The notes beneath the pieces are model-generated. The model did no database searches. It was not told the DNA's origin and saw only the letters and a list, made by a program, of their open reading frames with translations. From positions 3,100,001 to 3,164,000 of the forward strand of contig NC_017668.1 of the NCBI RefSeq assembly GCF_000284515.1: a stretch of DNA of 64,000 bases, given 5' to 3'. The position numbers and the translations under genes are program-made. Origin of the DNA: Halobacillus halophilus DSM 2266 (GTDB taxonomy: Bacteria > Bacillota > Bacilli > Bacillales > Halobacillaceae). Below, piece by piece: positions 49,023 through 57,054 of the stretch (positions are counted from its first letter, which is position 1; every line of letters starts with the position of its first letter).

Positions 49023-49707
49023 ACACTTTCATATGATAGCGATTTACGGGGCGGCCCACTCCTCCATACTGAATGTCGATATCCACCTCGCCGATTTTTT
49101 GGAGGTATTCTAAGTACCTGCGTGCTGTTACCCGGGCCATTCCCACACCGTCTGCTACCTGTTCAGCGGATAAAGCATCAGAGTTTCGGCTGAGAAAAGT
49201 AGTAATTTGCTCCAGAGTCTGTTGATTTAATCCTTTAGGTAATTCTTTGACATCATGATCAAGCTTACTTCCAACCAGCCCATCGATCTGCTGCTGTTGT
49301 AAAGCTCCCTCACCCCTTATTTCCGAACGGAAATCCCGGTAGTTTGTGAGCGCTTGCTGCAGACGCTCAAATTTAAAAGGTTTAATCAGATAATCGATGG
49401 CACCGTGCCTGAACATGGAGCGAATGGTATCTTTATCGTTGGCTGCTGTAATTACAATGACATCAACATCAAACGCATGCTTTCGTATTTCTTTAAGTGC
49501 TTCCACACCATCCTGTCCCGGCATAAAAATATCCAGAACGATCAGATGGGGAGAAAGCTCTTTGGCCATTCTCACTCCTTCTCTCCCATCCGAAGCGACA
49601 TCAACGACTTGAAACGGAGATACCCGTTCAATGAATTGCCGATTCACTTCCTGGACCATGGGGTCGTCTTCAATTAACAACACTTCAATAACCTGTTGCC
49701 TGCTCAT
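49021..49707 (-). CDS. Response regulator, DctR/CitB family
   Basis: 228 residues. Receiver domain (about 1-125) with the acidic pair IEDD, phospho-acceptor Asp in IVLDIFMPG, Thr in VITAA and the Lys in LIKPFKFERL; C-terminal helix-turn-helix (about 165-225) with LSAEQVADGVGMARVTARRYLEYL, typical of the CitT/DcuR/DctR group. ATG 49707 has GGAGG upstream, inside the end of the kinase gene; the overlap points to coupled translation. Controls carboxylate uptake genes in relatives. Confidence 0.92.
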   Translation of the reverse strand: MSRQQVIEVLLIEDDPMVQEVNRQFIERVSPFQVVDVASDGREGVRMAKELSPHLIVLDIFMPGQDGVEALKEIRKHAFDVDVIVITAANDKDTIRSMFRHGAIDYLIKPFKFERLQQALTNYRDFRSEIRGEGALQQQQIDGLVGSKLDHDVKELPKGLNQQTLEQITTFLSRNSDALSAEQVADGVGMARVTARRYLEYLQKIGEVDIDIQYGGVGRPVNRYHMKV

Positions 49708-51304
49708 AGGAATCCTCCTCAAGTATCATAGGAAACGTAATTAATATGCTCATGCCCTCTCCCTTTCGAGAAAAAACTTCGATCTCTCCCAGTCCTTTAT
49801 CCACGATATTGTTCACTAAATAAAGCCCGATCCCTGAGCCCTTCTGTCCTTTTGTTGTAAAACCTTTATCAAAGATAGCTGTTTGTTGTTCACTGGAAAT
49901 CCCCTTGCCATTGTCCTCCACACTGATGGAACAGCTATGTTCATTTTGCGAGATAGAAACATCGATCCACTTTTCTTCGCGTTCCATTTCCTCAAAGGCG
50001 TGAAAAGCATTTTCGATAAGATTGCCTAATATAAGAACAAAATCATGCTGATCAAGTAAAGGCGGATAACGATGCATTTCACTTTGGCTATCAATCACCA
50101 CTTCAATTCCCAGTTCTTTACCGCGGCTTACTTTACTGAGCAATAGACCGGATAAACTATAATCCTTCAAATTTTTCACTAAAAAGTTAGATAGGCGCTC
50201 CTGTTTTTCTGAAGTTTCAAATACAAAATCCAGTGCCTTATCCTTCTGATCTAGTTGAATGAGACCCGCAATGGTATGCAGCTTGTTTAAGTGCTCATGA
50301 TTCTGAACACGTAAAGCATCCACAAAGGCTTTCACGCCTGTTAGTTCTTCGGCGAGTCGGGTAACATCCGTCCGGTCCTGGAAAATCACTACCGCACCGA
50401 TTGTCTCCTCTTCTACTCTTATCGGAACGCGTGTGCTCATCACTAAAGTGCTCCCCAGCCGAAGCTCTTCATTATAAACACCCTGTCCCGAAGAGAGTAC
50501 GTCCCCAAGCCTGATGTCCGGCATAACCTGTTCGATCCTTTGCTTTCTCTGATCTCCTTTAATACCGAGAATCTTTTTAGCTTTATCGTTCATAATTGTA
50601 ATTTTTCCTTCATTATCAATTGCTACAATACCTTCATTCATAGCCTGGAAGGTGGCCGTCCGCTCCACGAGCAGCTGAACCACTTCGTGAGGTTCCAAAT
50701 GAAACGTCTGTTCTTTTAAATGCCTCGCCAGCAGCCAGGAACCCGTAATTCCGAAAAGTCCTGTTAATAAAAGAACCAGCAGGATTTCGCTTTTCATTGC
50801 AAACAGAATTTCCTGCAACGATGGCAGTAGATTTCCGACAATCACGACACCGATCTGCTCGTGATCTTCATTCATCACGGGTACAAACCCCCGTACAGCT
50901 ACTCCCATCACCCCCTCGGCCTTGGAAGTATAACTGTGTTCCCCAAAAGCCGGCCCTTCATCCTTGCCCGAAGATAAAGTGCCGAGCTTCTCTTCCACCG
51001 GATGAGAATATCGAATTCGATTCATATTCAGGACTACGATATAGTCCGAGCTGTTAATTGTACGAATCCGCTCCACTACAGGATTGATTTTCTTCCAACC
51101 CTCTGATTCGGTTAACCCTTCTTTAAGAGCTGGTAGATTTGCAATAGTCCTTCCGGTGACGAGGGCATGTTCTCCAAGTGATTCTTCTTTGGATTCAATT
51201 GAATTTCCTATTATGATAATACCGCCTATCAAAACGGTAAAGGCTACAATTCCAAATGATAGAATAGTAATCTTCCAGCGGATGGGCATCCGTTTAAGTG
51301 ACAT
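49685..51304 (-). CDS. Sensor histidine kinase, DctS/CitA family
   Basis: 539 residues: helix 9-31, extracellular PDC-type sensor (about 32-170), helix 172-194, PAS domain (about 205-320; NEGIVAIDNEGKITIMNDKAKKILG), SpoOB-type dimerisation helix with the phospho-His in VQNHEHLNKLHTIAGLIQL, and HATPase_c with NLIENAFHAFEE and GSGIGLYLV. This is the architecture of the DctS/DcuS/CitA carboxylate sensors. It is divergent from the DctP/DctB-like gene at 51399, as expected for a co-sensor pair. Confidence 0.92.
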   Translation of the reverse strand: MSLKRMPIRWKITILSFGIVAFTVLIGGIIIIGNSIESKEESLGEHALVTGRTIANLPALKEGLTESEGWKKINPVVERIRTINSSDYIVVLNMNRIRYSHPVEEKLGTLSSGKDEGPAFGEHSYTSKAEGVMGVAVRGFVPVMNEDHEQIGVVIVGNLLPSLQEILFAMKSEILLVLLLTGLFGITGSWLLARHLKEQTFHLEPHEVVQLLVERTATFQAMNEGIVAIDNEGKITIMNDKAKKILGIKGDQRKQRIEQVMPDIRLGDVLSSGQGVYNEELRLGSTLVMSTRVPIRVEEETIGAVVIFQDRTDVTRLAEELTGVKAFVDALRVQNHEHLNKLHTIAGLIQLDQKDKALDFVFETSEKQERLSNFLVKNLKDYSLSGLLLSKVSRGKELGIEVVIDSQSEMHRYPPLLDQHDFVLILGNLIENAFHAFEEMEREEKWIDVSISQNEHSCSISVEDNGKGISSEQQTAIFDKGFTTKGQKGSGIGLYLVNNIVDKGLGEIEVFSRKGEGMSILITFPMILEEDSYEQATGY

Positions 51305-51370
51305 GACCGATCTTCCTCCCTCGTCTATTATTAATAGTGTATCACTTTAAAGCAGGCCTATGTTACACTA

Positions 51371-51386
51371 TTGGAAACGATTACAA
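51371..51386 (+). promoter_or_regulatory. CcpA cre box before the DctB-like gene
   Basis: TTGGAAACGATTACAA fits WTGNAANCGNWNNCWW at every position. It ends where the AAGGAG ribosome site begins, so bound CcpA would block the transcript start region or elongation. Confidence 0.7.
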
Positions 51387-51398
51387 GGAGTAGTCCCT

Positions 51399-52451
51399 TT
51401 GAAAACGGTCGCAGCCATTTGTCTATTTATTTTCACAGGAATCGTGACAGCTTTTGTATTCGGATTTGATTTAAATGAATCCCAGGATTCCTTGCAGTAC
51501 GATGATGAACAGGAAGGAATTGAAGATAAGGTCGTAATTAAATTCAGTCACGTCGTTGCCGAAAACACCCCAAAAGGCAGGGCCGTCCGGCAATTCGCTT
51601 CCCTCGTTCATGAGCGGACAGACGGGGAAATTAAAGTGGAGATTTATCCGAATGGAACCCTTTATAACGATCAAAATGAGTATGACGCATTAATAAACGG
51701 CCATATTCAAATGATCGCGCCGGCTACATCCAAGCTTACCGAGCGGTTCCCAAAATGGCAGGTCCTGGATCTCCCATTTGCCTTCCCCACCTATCAAGCA
51801 GTGGAGGAAGCTTACGAGGGGACGATTGGTCAGACACTGATTGATCAATTGGGCCCTAAGGTAAAAGGAATAACCTTTTGGTACAACGGCTATAAGCAGG
51901 TGACCAGCAGCGAAGAACCTATGATCTTACCTTCTGATTTCAATCAAACTCACTTGAGAATCATGCCTAGTCCTGTTATTGAGTCCCAGTTCCATGCACT
52001 TGGAGCAAGTACCAGCCAGATGCCGTTCAATAAAACGTACAGTAATTTGGAAGTCGATTTTATTAATGGCCAGGAGAACACTTTATCAAACATTTACTCT
52101 AAGAATCTATACAAAGAACAAGACTACTTAACGATCAGTAATCACGGCTATCTGGGTTATGCTGTCCTTATGAATGATGAGTTTTGGAGTGAACTTTCTA
52201 ACGAACATCAGGCTATAATTTCACAGTCCATAGAAGAAACGACCGATTGGATTAAACGGCATTCCATAGAAATTAACGATGCACACCTCCGTCAGATTAA
52301 ACGGGACGACTCTCTGGAAGTGTATTATTTAACAAAAGAACAACGTGCCTTGTGGAAAGAAGCTGTTCAACCCGTATATCAGGTAACGGAGCCTATTGCC
52401 GGGGAACTTCTAATGGAAGAAGTTTATCGTTTACAAGAAAAATATCAATAG
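51399..52451 (+). CDS. DctP-family TRAP binding protein, likely DctB-like co-sensor
   Basis: 350 residues from TTG 51399 (AAGGAG eight bases upstream; ATG 51360 lacks a site). An N-terminal helix without lipobox exports it; the mature part has the DctP fold with FSHVVAENTPKGRAVRQFA, VEIYPNGTLYND and the carboxylate-contact region LRIMPSPVIESQFHALGA. No cognate DctQM permease lies nearby. In B. subtilis the similar DctB (YdbE) sits beside dctS-dctR and works as sensory partner of DctS; the same role is inferred here. Confidence 0.85.
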   Translation: MKTVAAICLFIFTGIVTAFVFGFDLNESQDSLQYDDEQEGIEDKVVIKFSHVVAENTPKGRAVRQFASLVHERTDGEIKVEIYPNGTLYNDQNEYDALINGHIQMIAPATSKLTERFPKWQVLDLPFAFPTYQAVEEAYEGTIGQTLIDQLGPKVKGITFWYNGYKQVTSSEEPMILPSDFNQTHLRIMPSPVIESQFHALGASTSQMPFNKTYSNLEVDFINGQENTLSNIYSKNLYKEQDYLTISNHGYLGYAVLMNDEFWSELSNEHQAIISQSIEETTDWIKRHSIEINDAHLRQIKRDDSLEVYYLTKEQRALWKEAVQPVYQVTEPIAGELLMEEVYRLQEKYQ

Positions 52452-52470
52452 GAACACTGGAGGAATCAAT

Positions 52471-52776
52471 ATGAACACATTATTTGTTGCCGGTCATTCC
52501 AAACTACCTACCGGAATGGCCGCAAACCACATATCCGAATCTTTAACCCTTACCTTGGAAGTTGACAAAAAATATGGTGTCATAGTGGATGCTTCCTGTA
52601 CTCTCGCCACAGATCATGGAAGAGAATTTATCAAATCCTTATTAAAAGGCTACAGTTTAAAAGAAGGTACGGACGAACCGGTGGCGCGTCTTAAAGAAGG
52701 CTATCTCGGCAAAGCCGGAAATGCTCTGGAAGCTGCTTTAAAAGATTCATACAAACAATATCAACTTCACCAGTAA
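52471..52776 (+). CDS. DUF3870-like protein
   Basis: 101 residues, no signal or membrane segment. FVAGHSKLPTGMAANHISESLTL and VIVDASCTLATDHGREFI fit my memory of the DUF3870 family of small proteins often found next to dicarboxylate or hydantoin uptake genes. It follows the DctB-like gene by 19 bases, so the two form an operon. Role unknown. Confidence 0.7.
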   Translation: MNTLFVAGHSKLPTGMAANHISESLTLTLEVDKKYGVIVDASCTLATDHGREFIKSLLKGYSLKEGTDEPVARLKEGYLGKAGNALEAALKDSYKQYQLHQ

Positions 52777-54603: not shown

Positions 54604-54640
54604 AAAGAGACCAGTGCATGGCACTGGTCTCTTCTTTTTT
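54604..54640. terminator. Bidirectional terminator between convergent genes
   Basis: AAGAGACCAGTGC / GCACTGGTCTCTT perfect stem with a three-base loop, followed by CTTTTTT. Confidence 0.9.
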
Positions 54641-55844
54641 AACTCACTTGAACTCGTTCCAACTCTGGAATCCGCTCCGCAATCTCTCTCCCAATTTCAA
54701 AAGAAGCGGTTGCCGCAGGTGATGGGGCATTACACACATGAACAGAACGCTTACCCGTAATGATATGAAAATCATCGACGAGACGTCCATCCTTCAACAT
54801 GGCCTGCGCCCTGACGCCAGCATCTGTTGGAATTACATCTTCTTCTTGAATATCCGGTACCAGGCGTTGAAGGCTCTTCACAAAACTCTCTTTATGAAAA
54901 GAGCGCACCATTTCCTTCATGCCTTCTTTCATATTGACTCTTGCCATTTTCCAAAACCCAGGGAATGATAAAACATCAAACGCATCTTTCCAGTGGAAAT
55001 CGGTCTTACGATACCCTTCACGCTTAAAGCTTAGTACAGCGTTTGGTCCTGCATGGATGCCACCGTCCATCATCTTCGTCAAATGAACGCCGAGAAAAGG
55101 GAAAGCAGGGTTCGGAATCGGATAAATCAGACCTTTTACTAAATGGTTCTTCTCCTCGGTTAATTTAAAATATTCTCCTCTGAACGGGACAATCTGCAAA
55201 TCCGTATGAATTCCTGCCATCCGGACAAGCCGGTCGCTGTGAAGACCTGCGCAGTTTATGAGAAAGCGCGATTTCAGTGTGCGCTCGCTCGTTTCTATCG
55301 TAACCTCGCCGGACCCCTCGTCAATTGTCTCGACAGCTGATCCGAATGAAAACTCGACACCGGCCTGCCTGAGCAATTCTGCGATTTTCACACTGACCTT
55401 CTTATAATTAACAATGCCTGTTGAAGGAACGCGGAGTCCTTCAATCCCATTGGCGTACGGTTCAATTTCCTGCAATTCCTTACGCCCAATCCTAGTCACA
55501 TTCAATCCATTTTCCTGAACGCGATCGTTCAGGGCTTCTAAACGAGGAATTTCCTCTTGTTCGGTTGCGACCAGCACTTTTCCGCACACTTCATGAGGAA
55601 CGTCATGAGTCTCACAGAATTCTACCATCGAGTTCCTGCCCTGCATGGCCATTCGCGCTTTTAAACTGCCAGGCTTGTAATAGACACCTGAGTGGATGAC
55701 GCCACTATTTCTTCCAGTCTGATGGGCAGAAAGCTCCTGTTCCTTTTCAACAACTATAATGGAAGCACCGGGATTCTTCTGAATGAGTGCGAAGGCTGTG
55801 GACAGACCCACAATACCCCCGCCGATAATCACATAATCATACAT
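54639..55844 (-). CDS. lhgO: L-2-hydroxyglutarate oxidase
   Basis: 401 residues. FAD-binding GGGIVGLSTAFAL and EKEQELSAHQTGRNSGVIHSGVYY, with the LhgO hallmark FRGEYFKL. It oxidises L-2-hydroxyglutarate to 2-oxoglutarate at the membrane, passing electrons to quinone. It follows glaH by 14 bases, giving the two-step route glutarate to L-2-hydroxyglutarate to 2-oxoglutarate of lysine breakdown. Confidence 0.94.
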   Translation of the reverse strand: MYDYVIIGGGIVGLSTAFALIQKNPGASIIVVEKEQELSAHQTGRNSGVIHSGVYYKPGSLKARMAMQGRNSMVEFCETHDVPHEVCGKVLVATEQEEIPRLEALNDRVQENGLNVTRIGRKELQEIEPYANGIEGLRVPSTGIVNYKKVSVKIAELLRQAGVEFSFGSAVETIDEGSGEVTIETSERTLKSRFLINCAGLHSDRLVRMAGIHTDLQIVPFRGEYFKLTEEKNHLVKGLIYPIPNPAFPFLGVHLTKMMDGGIHAGPNAVLSFKREGYRKTDFHWKDAFDVLSFPGFWKMARVNMKEGMKEMVRSFHKESFVKSLQRLVPDIQEEDVIPTDAGVRAQAMLKDGRLVDDFHIITGKRSVHVCNAPSPAATASFEIGREIAERIPELERVQVS

Positions 55845-55858
55845 TCTTCTGCCTCCTA

Positions 55859-56794
55859 CTACTTTACAAAATGTCCTCGCTGACGAAGTAATTCTCTATG
55901 GAGATCAGGATTCTCTTCAAACCCGGCCCTGCCGTGAAGCCAAAAACGATTATTCAGCATTACTAAATCTCCAACTGGAAGTTCCAGTTCAATGACCCCT
56001 TTTGAGTTTTCCATAGATTGAGACAGTTCTTTCAGATACTGAGCCTGAGCGATCGTTTCTGGGAACACAAACTGATCTATAAAACAGATGCAGGGACCAT
56101 TATTCCATTCATAGAATGGTTTCCGCTGTACATCTTCCGAGACGTTTTTACTGGCCGGAGCCTTATAGGTGAAAGGATAGGAAGCAAGTGGCTGATTGTA
56201 AAAGTAATCAAACTCTTCCCATTCATCAAGGTGCAGCAATCGAGAGCTTCCTCCAACTGCATTTTCTTCCTCCATCTTCATCATGAGCAGCCAGTCCGTC
56301 GGCTCATCCACATAGGTTCCATCCGTATGAAGTGTAAAGCGACGGTATGCCTGACGAAGATACGAATCACTGTCATCCGTATGCTTCACAGAGAAGCGTG
56401 CATAGTATTTTTTTGACATGGCATCAAAGTTTGGAATGCCCGCCAGGTGCGACAAGGCCGTGGAGAATTTCACATAGTCCTGAGCATCCTCCGTACGCCC
56501 TTGCAGTCCCACTGTAAAACCACCGGAATTCCGGTCATGAAGAAGAGTCCGGATCGTGTTTCCAAAGTCCTGATCCACTAAGTTCAGCAGTATATTTGCT
56601 GTGATAAACCGCTGGTAAGGAATATACTCCAACTGCTCATCACTAATGGCTTGAACCTCCTGCAAAAACTGATCAATCACCTGTTCTTCAAATTCAATAT
56701 GATATAAACGATTATGCTTTGGATGCGGCTGAATAGAATATCCTTGTCCTGTTATTGACGGAAGACTCTCTTTCTTCATTTCTACTGCACACAT
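55859..56794 (-). CDS. glaH: Glutarate 2-hydroxylase (CsiD/GlaH)
   Basis: 311 residues. Fe(II)/2-oxoglutarate dioxygenase with the metal triad in FTLHTDGTYV (His, Asp) and WLHGRAGF (His), and the CsiD-type TGYSI/HRLYHIEFEEQ opening. It hydroxylates glutarate to L-2-hydroxyglutarate. GGAGGG is eight bases before ATG 56794. First gene of the glaH-lhgO operon, under a structured leader (56795-57019) with its own terminator, so expression is probably controlled by RNA structure. Confidence 0.93.
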   Translation of the reverse strand: MCAVEMKKESLPSITGQGYSIQPHPKHNRLYHIEFEEQVIDQFLQEVQAISDEQLEYIPYQRFITANILLNLVDQDFGNTIRTLLHDRNSGGFTVGLQGRTEDAQDYVKFSTALSHLAGIPNFDAMSKKYYARFSVKHTDDSDSYLRQAYRRFTLHTDGTYVDEPTDWLLMMKMEEENAVGGSSRLLHLDEWEEFDYFYNQPLASYPFTYKAPASKNVSEDVQRKPFYEWNNGPCICFIDQFVFPETIAQAQYLKELSQSMENSKGVIELELPVGDLVMLNNRFWLHGRAGFEENPDLHRELLRQRGHFVK

Positions 56795-57019
56795 ATTAAT
56801 TTCCCTCCATAATAATTGTAGTAGTAAATTTTTAGGGGCCCATAAAAATCAAAAAAAGCCAGTCCTCTTCCATTTAAGGAAGAAAACTGGCTTTAAACTG
56901 CGAGTTAATCTCTGGCGCTGTAGAGATTAGACAGTTTTAACAGTTACGTTATCTGCTTATTGTACTAACGTTGCAGCCGGACAATGAAAGGGGCTTCCTT
57001 TCTATGGGGCTGCTTTCTA
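56795..57019 (-). ncRNA. Structured 5' leader of glaH-lhgO, possible riboswitch
   Basis: From the predicted start (about 57019) the reverse-strand RNA has hairpin 1 (57013-56973, outer stem GCAGCC/GGCTGC with inner GAAAGG/CCTTTC), hairpin 2 (56971-56946, ACGTTA/TAACGT), hairpin 3 (56937-56895, AAACTG/CAGTTT with inner AATCTCT/AGAGATT) and an intrinsic terminator (56894-56851) followed by seven U. AAAACTG of hairpin 3 can instead pair with CAGTTTT in the 5' arm of the terminator, a possible antiterminator. No T-box, lysine, glycine or other class I know fits. Confidence 0.65.
56851..56894 (-). terminator. Attenuator-type terminator inside the glaH leader
   Basis: AAAGCCAGT..CTTCC pairs with GGAAG..ACTGGCTTT, then TTTT and TGATTTTT on the reverse strand, about 57 bases upstream of the glaH ATG. 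The flanking genes diverge, so it cannot serve an upstream gene. Confidence 0.85.
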
Positions 57020-57025
57020 TAATCT

Positions 57026-57054
57026 ATCCTATCGATGTTTTAATATTCTGTCAA
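57026..57054 (-). promoter_or_regulatory. Promoter of glaH-lhgO
   Basis: Reverse-strand TTGACA (57054-57049), 17-base spacer, TAGGAT (57031-57026). The expected start falls a few bases before leader hairpin 1. Confidence 0.7.

Follow-up and report, generated by a model that had tools for sequence, protein, structure and literature searches.

HutP, the antiterminator protein of the hut operon, responds to a pathway metabolite. In the BglG/SacY/LicT systems, an RNA hairpin (RAT) overlaps the 5′ arm of a terminator and excludes that terminator. Glutarate is where three catabolic branches meet: GlaH with LhgO, a CoA-transferase with a dehydrogenase, and an aminotransferase with an aldehyde dehydrogenase. 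CsiR, GcdR, and LhgR are DNA-binding regulators. According to passages from two papers (PMC6667623, PMC8206213), these three proteins regulate proteobacterial glutarate catabolism by the csiD(glaH)-lhgO pathway. We analysed the glaH-lhgO locus of Halobacillus halophilus DSM 2266 in a window of 64,000 nucleotides (NC_017668.1, positions 3,100,001 to 3,164,000; all coordinates below are counted within the window). Here the two genes follow a leader RNA that ends in an intrinsic terminator (Table 1).

A preliminary description of this DNA had placed a promoter, three hairpins, and a terminator on the minus strand between 57054 and 56795, and had taken the terminator for an attenuator inside the leader of genes that it named glaH and lhgO. 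The promoter-like hexamers and the terminator are at the places that it gave. The terminator stem (56894-56855) has 17 pairs, 7 of them GC, with a run of 7 Ts (56857-56851) and 56 bases to the ATG of glaH. The three hairpins are present as well, and the 171-base leader folds at -63.6 kcal/mol, compared to -34.4 kcal/mol (standard deviation 4.0) for dinucleotide shuffles (z = -7.4). Both proteins match NCBIfam equivalogs above the cut-off, so the gene names are right. The attenuator is real: an intrinsic terminator lies ahead of the first gene, as it does in all 103 of the relatives described below. The divergent neighbour of glaH is a glycerate kinase gene.

Table 1. Features of the glaH-lhgO locus in the window
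Feature	Position	Strand	Evidence or detail
Promoter-like site TTGACA-17-TAGGAT	57026..57054	-	10/12 consensus matches
Domain 1	56973..57013	-	P1 57013-57008 with 56978-56973; internal loop; P1b 57002-56997 with 56991-56986
P0 5′ strand AACTG	56941..56945	-	CTG kept in 100/101 leaders
Domain 2	56895..56937	-	P2 56937-56931 with 56901-56895; P2b 56927-56922 with 56913-56908
P0 3′ strand CAGTT, part of terminator 5′ arm	56885..56889	-	CAG kept in 101/101
Intrinsic terminator with T run	56851..56894	-	Pattern scan; terminator also behind all 103 relatives
glaH, glutarate dioxygenase (controlled gene)	55859..56794	-	NF002814, 433.5 bits (cut-off 333)
lhgO, L-2-hydroxyglutarate oxidase (controlled gene)	54639..55844	-	NF008726, 587.9 bits (cut-off 299)
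DUF3870 gene, B type, proposed trans-acting partner	52471..52776	+	PF12986, 105.7 bits; co-occurrence, neighbourhood

A promoter scan of this region alone is at the level of chance (6 sites found versus 5.2 expected). Among 25 sequences upstream of glaH, TTGAC[A/T] is present in 24 (the exception is L040), 191-240 bases ahead of the end of the terminator. Between the terminator and the ribosome site of glaH (56829-56848) there is also a near-palindrome, TTTTTATGGGCCCCTAAAAA. Perfect palindromes centred on GGCC lie behind the terminator in 8 of the 17 glaH leaders of the family that were scanned, and in two f17 leaders. Because their arms have changed and are still complementary, they fit a hairpin in the RNA whose loop is fixed; a DNA operator is also possible.

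We built a covariance model (R1) from 19 glaH leaders, using a structure that was written by hand. GlaH was detected in 21 of the 44 genomes of the family, and R1 has a strong match ahead of glaH in 20 of these 21 (E at most 4.2e-17); since 18 of the 20 were used to build R1, just two of these matches are independent. In the twenty-first genome (G065), R1 matches before other genes of the pathway, and a leader with the same layout can be seen by eye before glaH. Among the named organisms with glaH are Halobacillus species, Pontibacillus litoralis (a model match of 102.9 bits), Bacillus ectoiniformans (24.3 bits), and B. piscicola (25.7 bits). Across the order, 35 of 397 genomes have R1 matches (E up to 0.01). 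A second model (R2), built from 34 R1 matches, has matches in 50 of the 397 genomes of the order (25 of 135 genera). In the class, it matches 18 of 398 genomes, and 13 of these 18 are outside the order. About 4 matches per ~400 genomes are expected by chance at the R2 threshold; most of the matches are far stronger, and the weakest may be chance. Within the genome that the window comes from, the glaH leader is the sole match to R2 or R1 below E = 0.1.

Some genomes have several leaders close together: G084 (L122) has four in a stretch of about 10 kb, and G586 (L151-L153) has four in about 19 kb. In G015 (L043, L045), glaH is matched as two overlapping pieces in different frames, behind an R1-matched leader. 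This is either a broken gene or a sequencing error.

The preliminary description saw no conserved core of the T-box, lysine, glycine, SAM, TPP, FMN, or c-di-AMP classes in the leader, and Rfam agrees: at the gathering score, release 15 has 0 matches in the window, in 20 leader loci, and in 11 loci of the A type (see below). With E up to 10, the window has 13 matches, all of them far under their own cut-offs and at chance level. In the open literature that we searched, no paper mentions a riboswitch together with both glaH and glutarate, and none mentions a candidate riboswitch together with 2-hydroxyglutarate. In the excerpts that searches returned, papers on riboswitches with lysine degradation and glutarate, with 5-aminovalerate, or with glutaryl-CoA dehydrogenase do not concern the glaH leader; the sole mention of DUF3870 concerns other proteins; and none of the matches listed for antitermination, leader RNA, or DUF819 involves glutarate. 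A text search of PMC6265302 returned no mention of a riboswitch, a leader, genomic context, Bacillus, Halobacillus, or Firmicutes, and passages of PMC8119775 mention neither a riboswitch nor csiD. Judged by its sequence, the glaH leader is a member of a large RNA class, which is new as far as the excerpts from the literature and Rfam at the gathering score go.

We collected 103 matches (E up to 0.1) from 86 loci; two pairs of rows are identical, which leaves 101 distinct leaders. A search of this kind, with a model built from the leaders of glaH orthologues, had been suggested in the preliminary description, and the orthologues do covary. The covariation score is 0.600, compared to 0.190 for shuffled alignments and at most 0.106 if the partners are slid by 1-3 columns, and 90.7% of the pairing cells are paired, compared to 67.2% when shuffled; these figures lean upward because the sequences share ancestry and were aligned to fit the model. 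(Alignments A3, A4, A5, and A7 were fitted to the model structure, and the pair counts on A4 and A5 lean towards it; A8 is a MAFFT alignment.) Among the 101 distinct leaders, every pair shows compensatory changes, both the 12 of P1 and P1b and the 14 that the model gives to P2 and P2b. The outer and inner pairs of P2b are often open (81% paired), and some distant members have a simple 5′ hairpin, or none that is visible, instead of domain 1. Among the unpaired bases, few reach 90% conservation. All 103 copies are followed by a terminator (102 by pattern and one by eye).

To describe the controlled genes, we took the first frame of at least 150 residues behind each of the 103 leaders, and we named each cluster from one representative. 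The first gene encodes GlaH in 49 cases, a protein similar to succinate-glutarate CoA-transferase in 19, a protein similar to glutaryl-CoA dehydrogenase in 6, a class III aminotransferase in 6, a permease in 4, an aldehyde dehydrogenase in 3, a GntR-FCD protein in 3, and a PotA-like protein, LhgO, or a dynamin-like protein in 2 each. A TRAP permease, a Rieske oxygenase, and an unnamed cluster were found once each; a frame on the opposite strand came first in 3 cases, and no frame was found in 1. The best NCBIfam match of the CoA-transferase is succinate-glutarate CoA-transferase. For the dehydrogenase, the best match is acryloyl-CoA reductase and the second is glutaryl-CoA dehydrogenase, and the aldehyde dehydrogenase is just under the cut-off of the model for ketoglutaric-semialdehyde. 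Since these matches are all under the cut-off, the substrates of the enzymes are putative. Related leaders precede genes that probably belong to the glutarate pathway, which supports the link to glutarate made in the preliminary description. Glutarate is common to all of the controlled branches, so we chose it as the likely inducer. Overall, the support for a conserved transcription attenuator of glutarate genes is good, and we have very little doubt that it is one.

Several loci have unusual arrangements. At L122 (2579-5758, in G084), a leader is followed by genes for a Rieske oxygenase and then a BCCT transporter, and this leader adjoins leaders on the aldehyde dehydrogenase, CoA-transferase, and glaH genes. 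Perhaps the Rieske/BCCT locus serves to degrade a betaine (for instance valerobetaine) to glutarate semialdehyde. In three genomes from a single genus (L101, L103, and L104), we saw by eye that the leader is followed by a conserved Cys-rich frame of 22-23 codons (MCKKTGCGKC...) and then by a large dynamin-like gene. L191 (9146, 9317) and L196 (3687, 3859) each have two leaders back to back before divergent operons, with aminotransferase, aldehyde dehydrogenase, and permease genes on one side and CoA-transferase and dehydrogenase genes on the other.

The element reads ACUG-UNAA-[P2[P2b]]-NAAGCCAGU, and its GCCAGU doubles as the 5′ arm of the terminator. In 100 of the 101 leaders, domain 2 can be closed by a competing helix (P0), in which CUG pairs with CAG of the terminator's 5′ arm. 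The preliminary description had proposed another switch, with AAAACTG at 56938-56932 pairing either with CAGTTT in its own hairpin or with CAGTTTT in the terminator. Both pairings are possible in this leader, but the second copy of ACTG is not a conserved switch: it can form at least 6 pairs with CAGTTTT in 5 of the 101 leaders, that is, in few relatives. The 5′ strand of P0 uses the first ACTG instead (56945-56941). The pair next to the P0 core is kept in 100 of 101 leaders (98.1 when shuffled) and the one after it in 71 (62.7 when shuffled). Two further positions pair less often than when shuffled (31 vs. 44.9 and 45 vs. 51.7), so P0 is short. Because the CUG/CAG core is invariant, covariation supports P0 weakly in the glutarate leaders.

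We also computed the probability of P0 by thermodynamic folding. Before the 3′ arm of the terminator exists, the median probability is 0.87, and it is above 0.5 for 73 of the 101 leaders. Once the 3′ arm is present, the median is 0.000, and 1 of 101 is above 0.5. For the leader in the window, the predicted probability drops from 0.92 to 5e-11. In these folding models, P0 and the terminator are mutually exclusive.

The leader is accompanied by genes that encode DUF3870. Within the family, PF12986 is found in 28 of 44 genomes, including all 23 that were then known to have the leader. Four of the other five genomes have a paralogue of the A type only. The fifth (G061) has both types, and next to its B-type gene R2 detects a previously missed leader (75.9 bits). 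None of 14 control genomes, B. subtilis among them, has a DUF3870 match. Another 57 genomes with leaders lie outside the family; of the 47 of these that were examined, 46 have a DUF3870 protein of some kind. The exception, G629, has a leader and no DUF3870 at E up to 10. In the order, a profile for the B type clearly matches 108 of 397 genomes, each with a best E of 3.6e-34 or lower, and the next match is at 3.5e-24. The B-type protein is present in 50 of 50 genomes with a leader and in 58 of the 347 others (P = 1.6e-33, Fisher exact test, ignoring ancestry); shared ancestry inflates all of these counts. One of the 58 genomes (G382) has an R1 match.

The genes are often close together as well. 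In 60 of 71 genomes, DUF3870 lies no more than 10 kb from a leader, and in 33 of these 60 the two are on opposite strands; in 9 of the 71, DUF3870 is directly upstream of a leader on the same strand. (Nine leader genomes are omitted from these counts, and G385 has no DUF3870 position in them; for G385, the B-type profile puts DUF3870 about 3 kb from the leader.) In G065, DUF3870 is downstream of a leader, as expected for an enzyme of the pathway. This close linkage favours an antiterminator that depends on a protein, which was the second suggestion of the preliminary description. Within the window (49685-52776), a gene for a DcuS-like sensor kinase faces a gene for a DctP binding protein, which is followed directly by DUF3870. 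This cluster possibly ties the sensing of dicarboxylates outside the cell to the glutarate regulon.

As a test of prediction, we examined 40 neighbourhoods of B-type genes, from 38 of the 58 genomes that have a B-type gene and no R2 match. R2 (E below 0.01) found leaders in 17 of these neighbourhoods, a motif search found them in 19, and the two combined found them in 22. The motif was found in 1 of 40 reversed sequences and in 0 shuffled ones, and in the window it finds the glaH leader alone; we composed it with the class already in view, so it is not a blind criterion. Neither model nor motif found a leader in the other 18 neighbourhoods, and one of these (L193) has a leader by eye. We took on 26 leaders: 24 by model or motif and one by eye from these regions, plus L165 (weak matches to R2 alone were excluded). 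All 26 precede genes of the glutarate pathway: GlaH (7), CoA-transferase (12), dehydrogenase (4), or aminotransferase (3).

A-type DUF3870 genes are followed by other attenuators that share this layout. In most of the loci that we read, the A-type gene precedes genes for DUF819 and for a ykfB-like protein of the enolase superfamily. Between DUF3870 and DUF819 is a short attenuator, GAUUG/AGCUG/AACUG-[UUUAUC...GAUAAA]-A(C/U)CCAG plus a terminator, which starts 6-42 bases past the DUF3870 frame in 14 of 14 loci. The stop codon of DUF3870 is a few bases before the P0 strand, and in L171 and L172 the P0 strand is inside the end of the gene. In 14 sequences, whose alignment was not fitted to the structure, 98.7% of the P0 and P2 cells pair (90.2% when shuffled). 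Double changes number 18 (5.4 when shuffled), and the pair types show no excess (11 vs. 10.8). Two variable outer pairs of P0 change from AU to GC, on the strand that is shared with the terminator. R2 weakly matches four of these elements in place: L170 (26 bits, E = 0.011), L164 (E = 0.31), L172 (E = 4.2), and L166 (E = 5.8).

Across the phylum, DUF3870 is found in 20 of 127 genomes, including the window's own. These genomes have 22 DUF3870 genes, of which 15 have a terminator within 350 bases; for 7, none was found. At the first terminator after DUF3870, the P0-P2 layout is present in 9 of 15 cases, compared to 87 of 856 control terminators (P = 4.8e-6, Fisher exact test), and it is absent in the other 6. 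The same scan, which requires a helix of at least 7 pairs, finds the layout in 12 of 14 A-type loci (P = 1.9e-10). If the minimum helix is 6, the counts are 10 of 15, 13 of 14, and 186 of 856. A stricter scan for terminators finds one at 5 of the 22 phylum genes, with the layout at 5 of 5, compared to 13 of 14 for the A type and 14 of 69 for controls; the scan was then loosened to the version above, whose controls exclude 26 terminators that carry CCAG in the arm. The P0 strands from the phylum include GGCC/GGCC, CCAU/AUGG, and UGCUGG/CCAGCG. As these differ in sequence, it is the pairing that is kept and not the letters. The next genes encode PrpD- and PrpF-like proteins, acetyl-CoA hydrolase/transferases, malic enzyme, carboxyltransferases, DctP, MeaB, and others. 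One small protein beside so many pathways for carboxylates and acyl-CoAs suits a regulator rather than one enzyme.

The DUF3870 protein itself has no relative in the PDB by sequence, and its predicted fold is similar to IscU (pLDDT 85.6). The scaffold proteins IscU and NifU carry three conserved cysteines; in 31 DUF3870 sequences, one cysteine column is invariant. A comparison of five DUF3870 proteins with Pfam (E up to 10) found PF12986 only, and no CAT RNA-binding domain. We also considered homology to HutP and rejected it (hhalign probability 0.2). HutP is absent from the 50 fold matches that were listed for the DUF3870 model, an absence that excludes nothing.

We propose the following mechanism. 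By default, the terminator would form and glaH-lhgO would be off. In the nascent RNA, P0 (AACUG with CAGUU) would close domain 2 (P2/P2b) and hold the 5′ arm of the terminator, and if P0 were stabilised, RNA polymerase would read through. We infer that DUF3870, which is encoded nearby, binds the element when a metabolite of the glutarate pathway is present and stabilises the antiterminator, as in a HutP-like system. The inducer would most likely be glutarate, and the operon would be on when it is present. Antitermination of the glutarate regulon with the help of DUF3870 is the reading that we favour, with a probability of about 0.58. We give about even odds to a broader idea: that DUF3870 proteins throughout the phylum are ligand-responsive antiterminators that bind RNA and have an IscU-like fold, that each works with its own P0-P2-terminator element guarding an operon for the breakdown of carboxylates or acyl-CoAs, and that the glaH leader is the glutarate member.

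The leader could instead be a riboswitch that needs no protein and turns the genes on: the two domains would bind glutarate or a close metabolite and stabilise P0, and DUF3870 would belong to the neighbourhood as a protein of the pathway or of signalling. A large conserved fold with two domains and much covariation would suit a riboswitch, as would the single metabolite that the controlled branches share, the formation of P0 without protein in the model of the nascent RNA, and the leader of G629, where DUF3870 was not detected. However, conservation of 90% or more is rare among the unpaired bases, DUF3870 is present in each of the order's 50 genomes with a leader, and elsewhere in the phylum it sits beside attenuators of other pathways, which share just P0, P2, and the terminator with the glaH leader. 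We think that a protein-free riboswitch is less likely than antitermination with DUF3870, but it is the main rival. The attenuator might also be worked by another factor, such as another RNA-binding protein, a tRNA, or, for the A type, ribosomes that are finishing the DUF3870 gene, whose stop codon is near the P0 strand and which overlaps that strand in L171 and L172. This seems improbable, as Rfam has no T-box match at the gathering score and DUF3870 (the sole gene family that we compared for tracking) tracks the leader closely. An ordinary terminator next to chance hairpins would fit the chance-level promoter scan of the region alone, but it would leave the covariation, the recurrence before one pathway, and the terminator behind all 103 copies as coincidences, and we give it almost no weight.

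Our results would add an undescribed class of RNA with a defined regulon, and the RNA marks genes for the breakdown of glutarate, 5-aminovalerate, and perhaps valerobetaine. The leader is also a candidate part, from Bacillota, for glutarate-responsive control. If DUF3870 is indeed the partner, then it would be a new family of antitermination proteins, and DUF3870 would gain a function.

Among the known systems, HutP and hut are similar: an intrinsic terminator controls access to a catabolic operon, the gene for a small protein lies ahead of this terminator or next to it, and induction is by a metabolite (as we propose here). The order that is typical of HutP, with the regulator before its terminator, is found in 14 of 14 A-type loci but in just 9 of 71 genomes with glutarate loci. 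Unlike HutP, to which it has no profile similarity, DUF3870 is accompanied by a P0-P2 antiterminator that overlaps the terminator. In this respect the RNA is more like the targets of BglG, SacY, and LicT, where the antiterminator hairpin also overlaps and excludes the terminator's 5′ arm; however, DUF3870 lacks their domain, the RNA is longer and has another sequence, and the pathways are for carboxylates. With metabolite riboswitches that use terminators, the glaH leader shares a covarying 5′ leader, an alternative closing helix with a terminator, and a single metabolic theme. Unlike the riboswitch classes in Rfam, it has no match at the gathering score, its ligand is putative, and it is tied to one protein family. 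Finally, the leader controls the same pathway as CsiR, GcdR, and LhgR, but these Bacillota use transcription attenuation.
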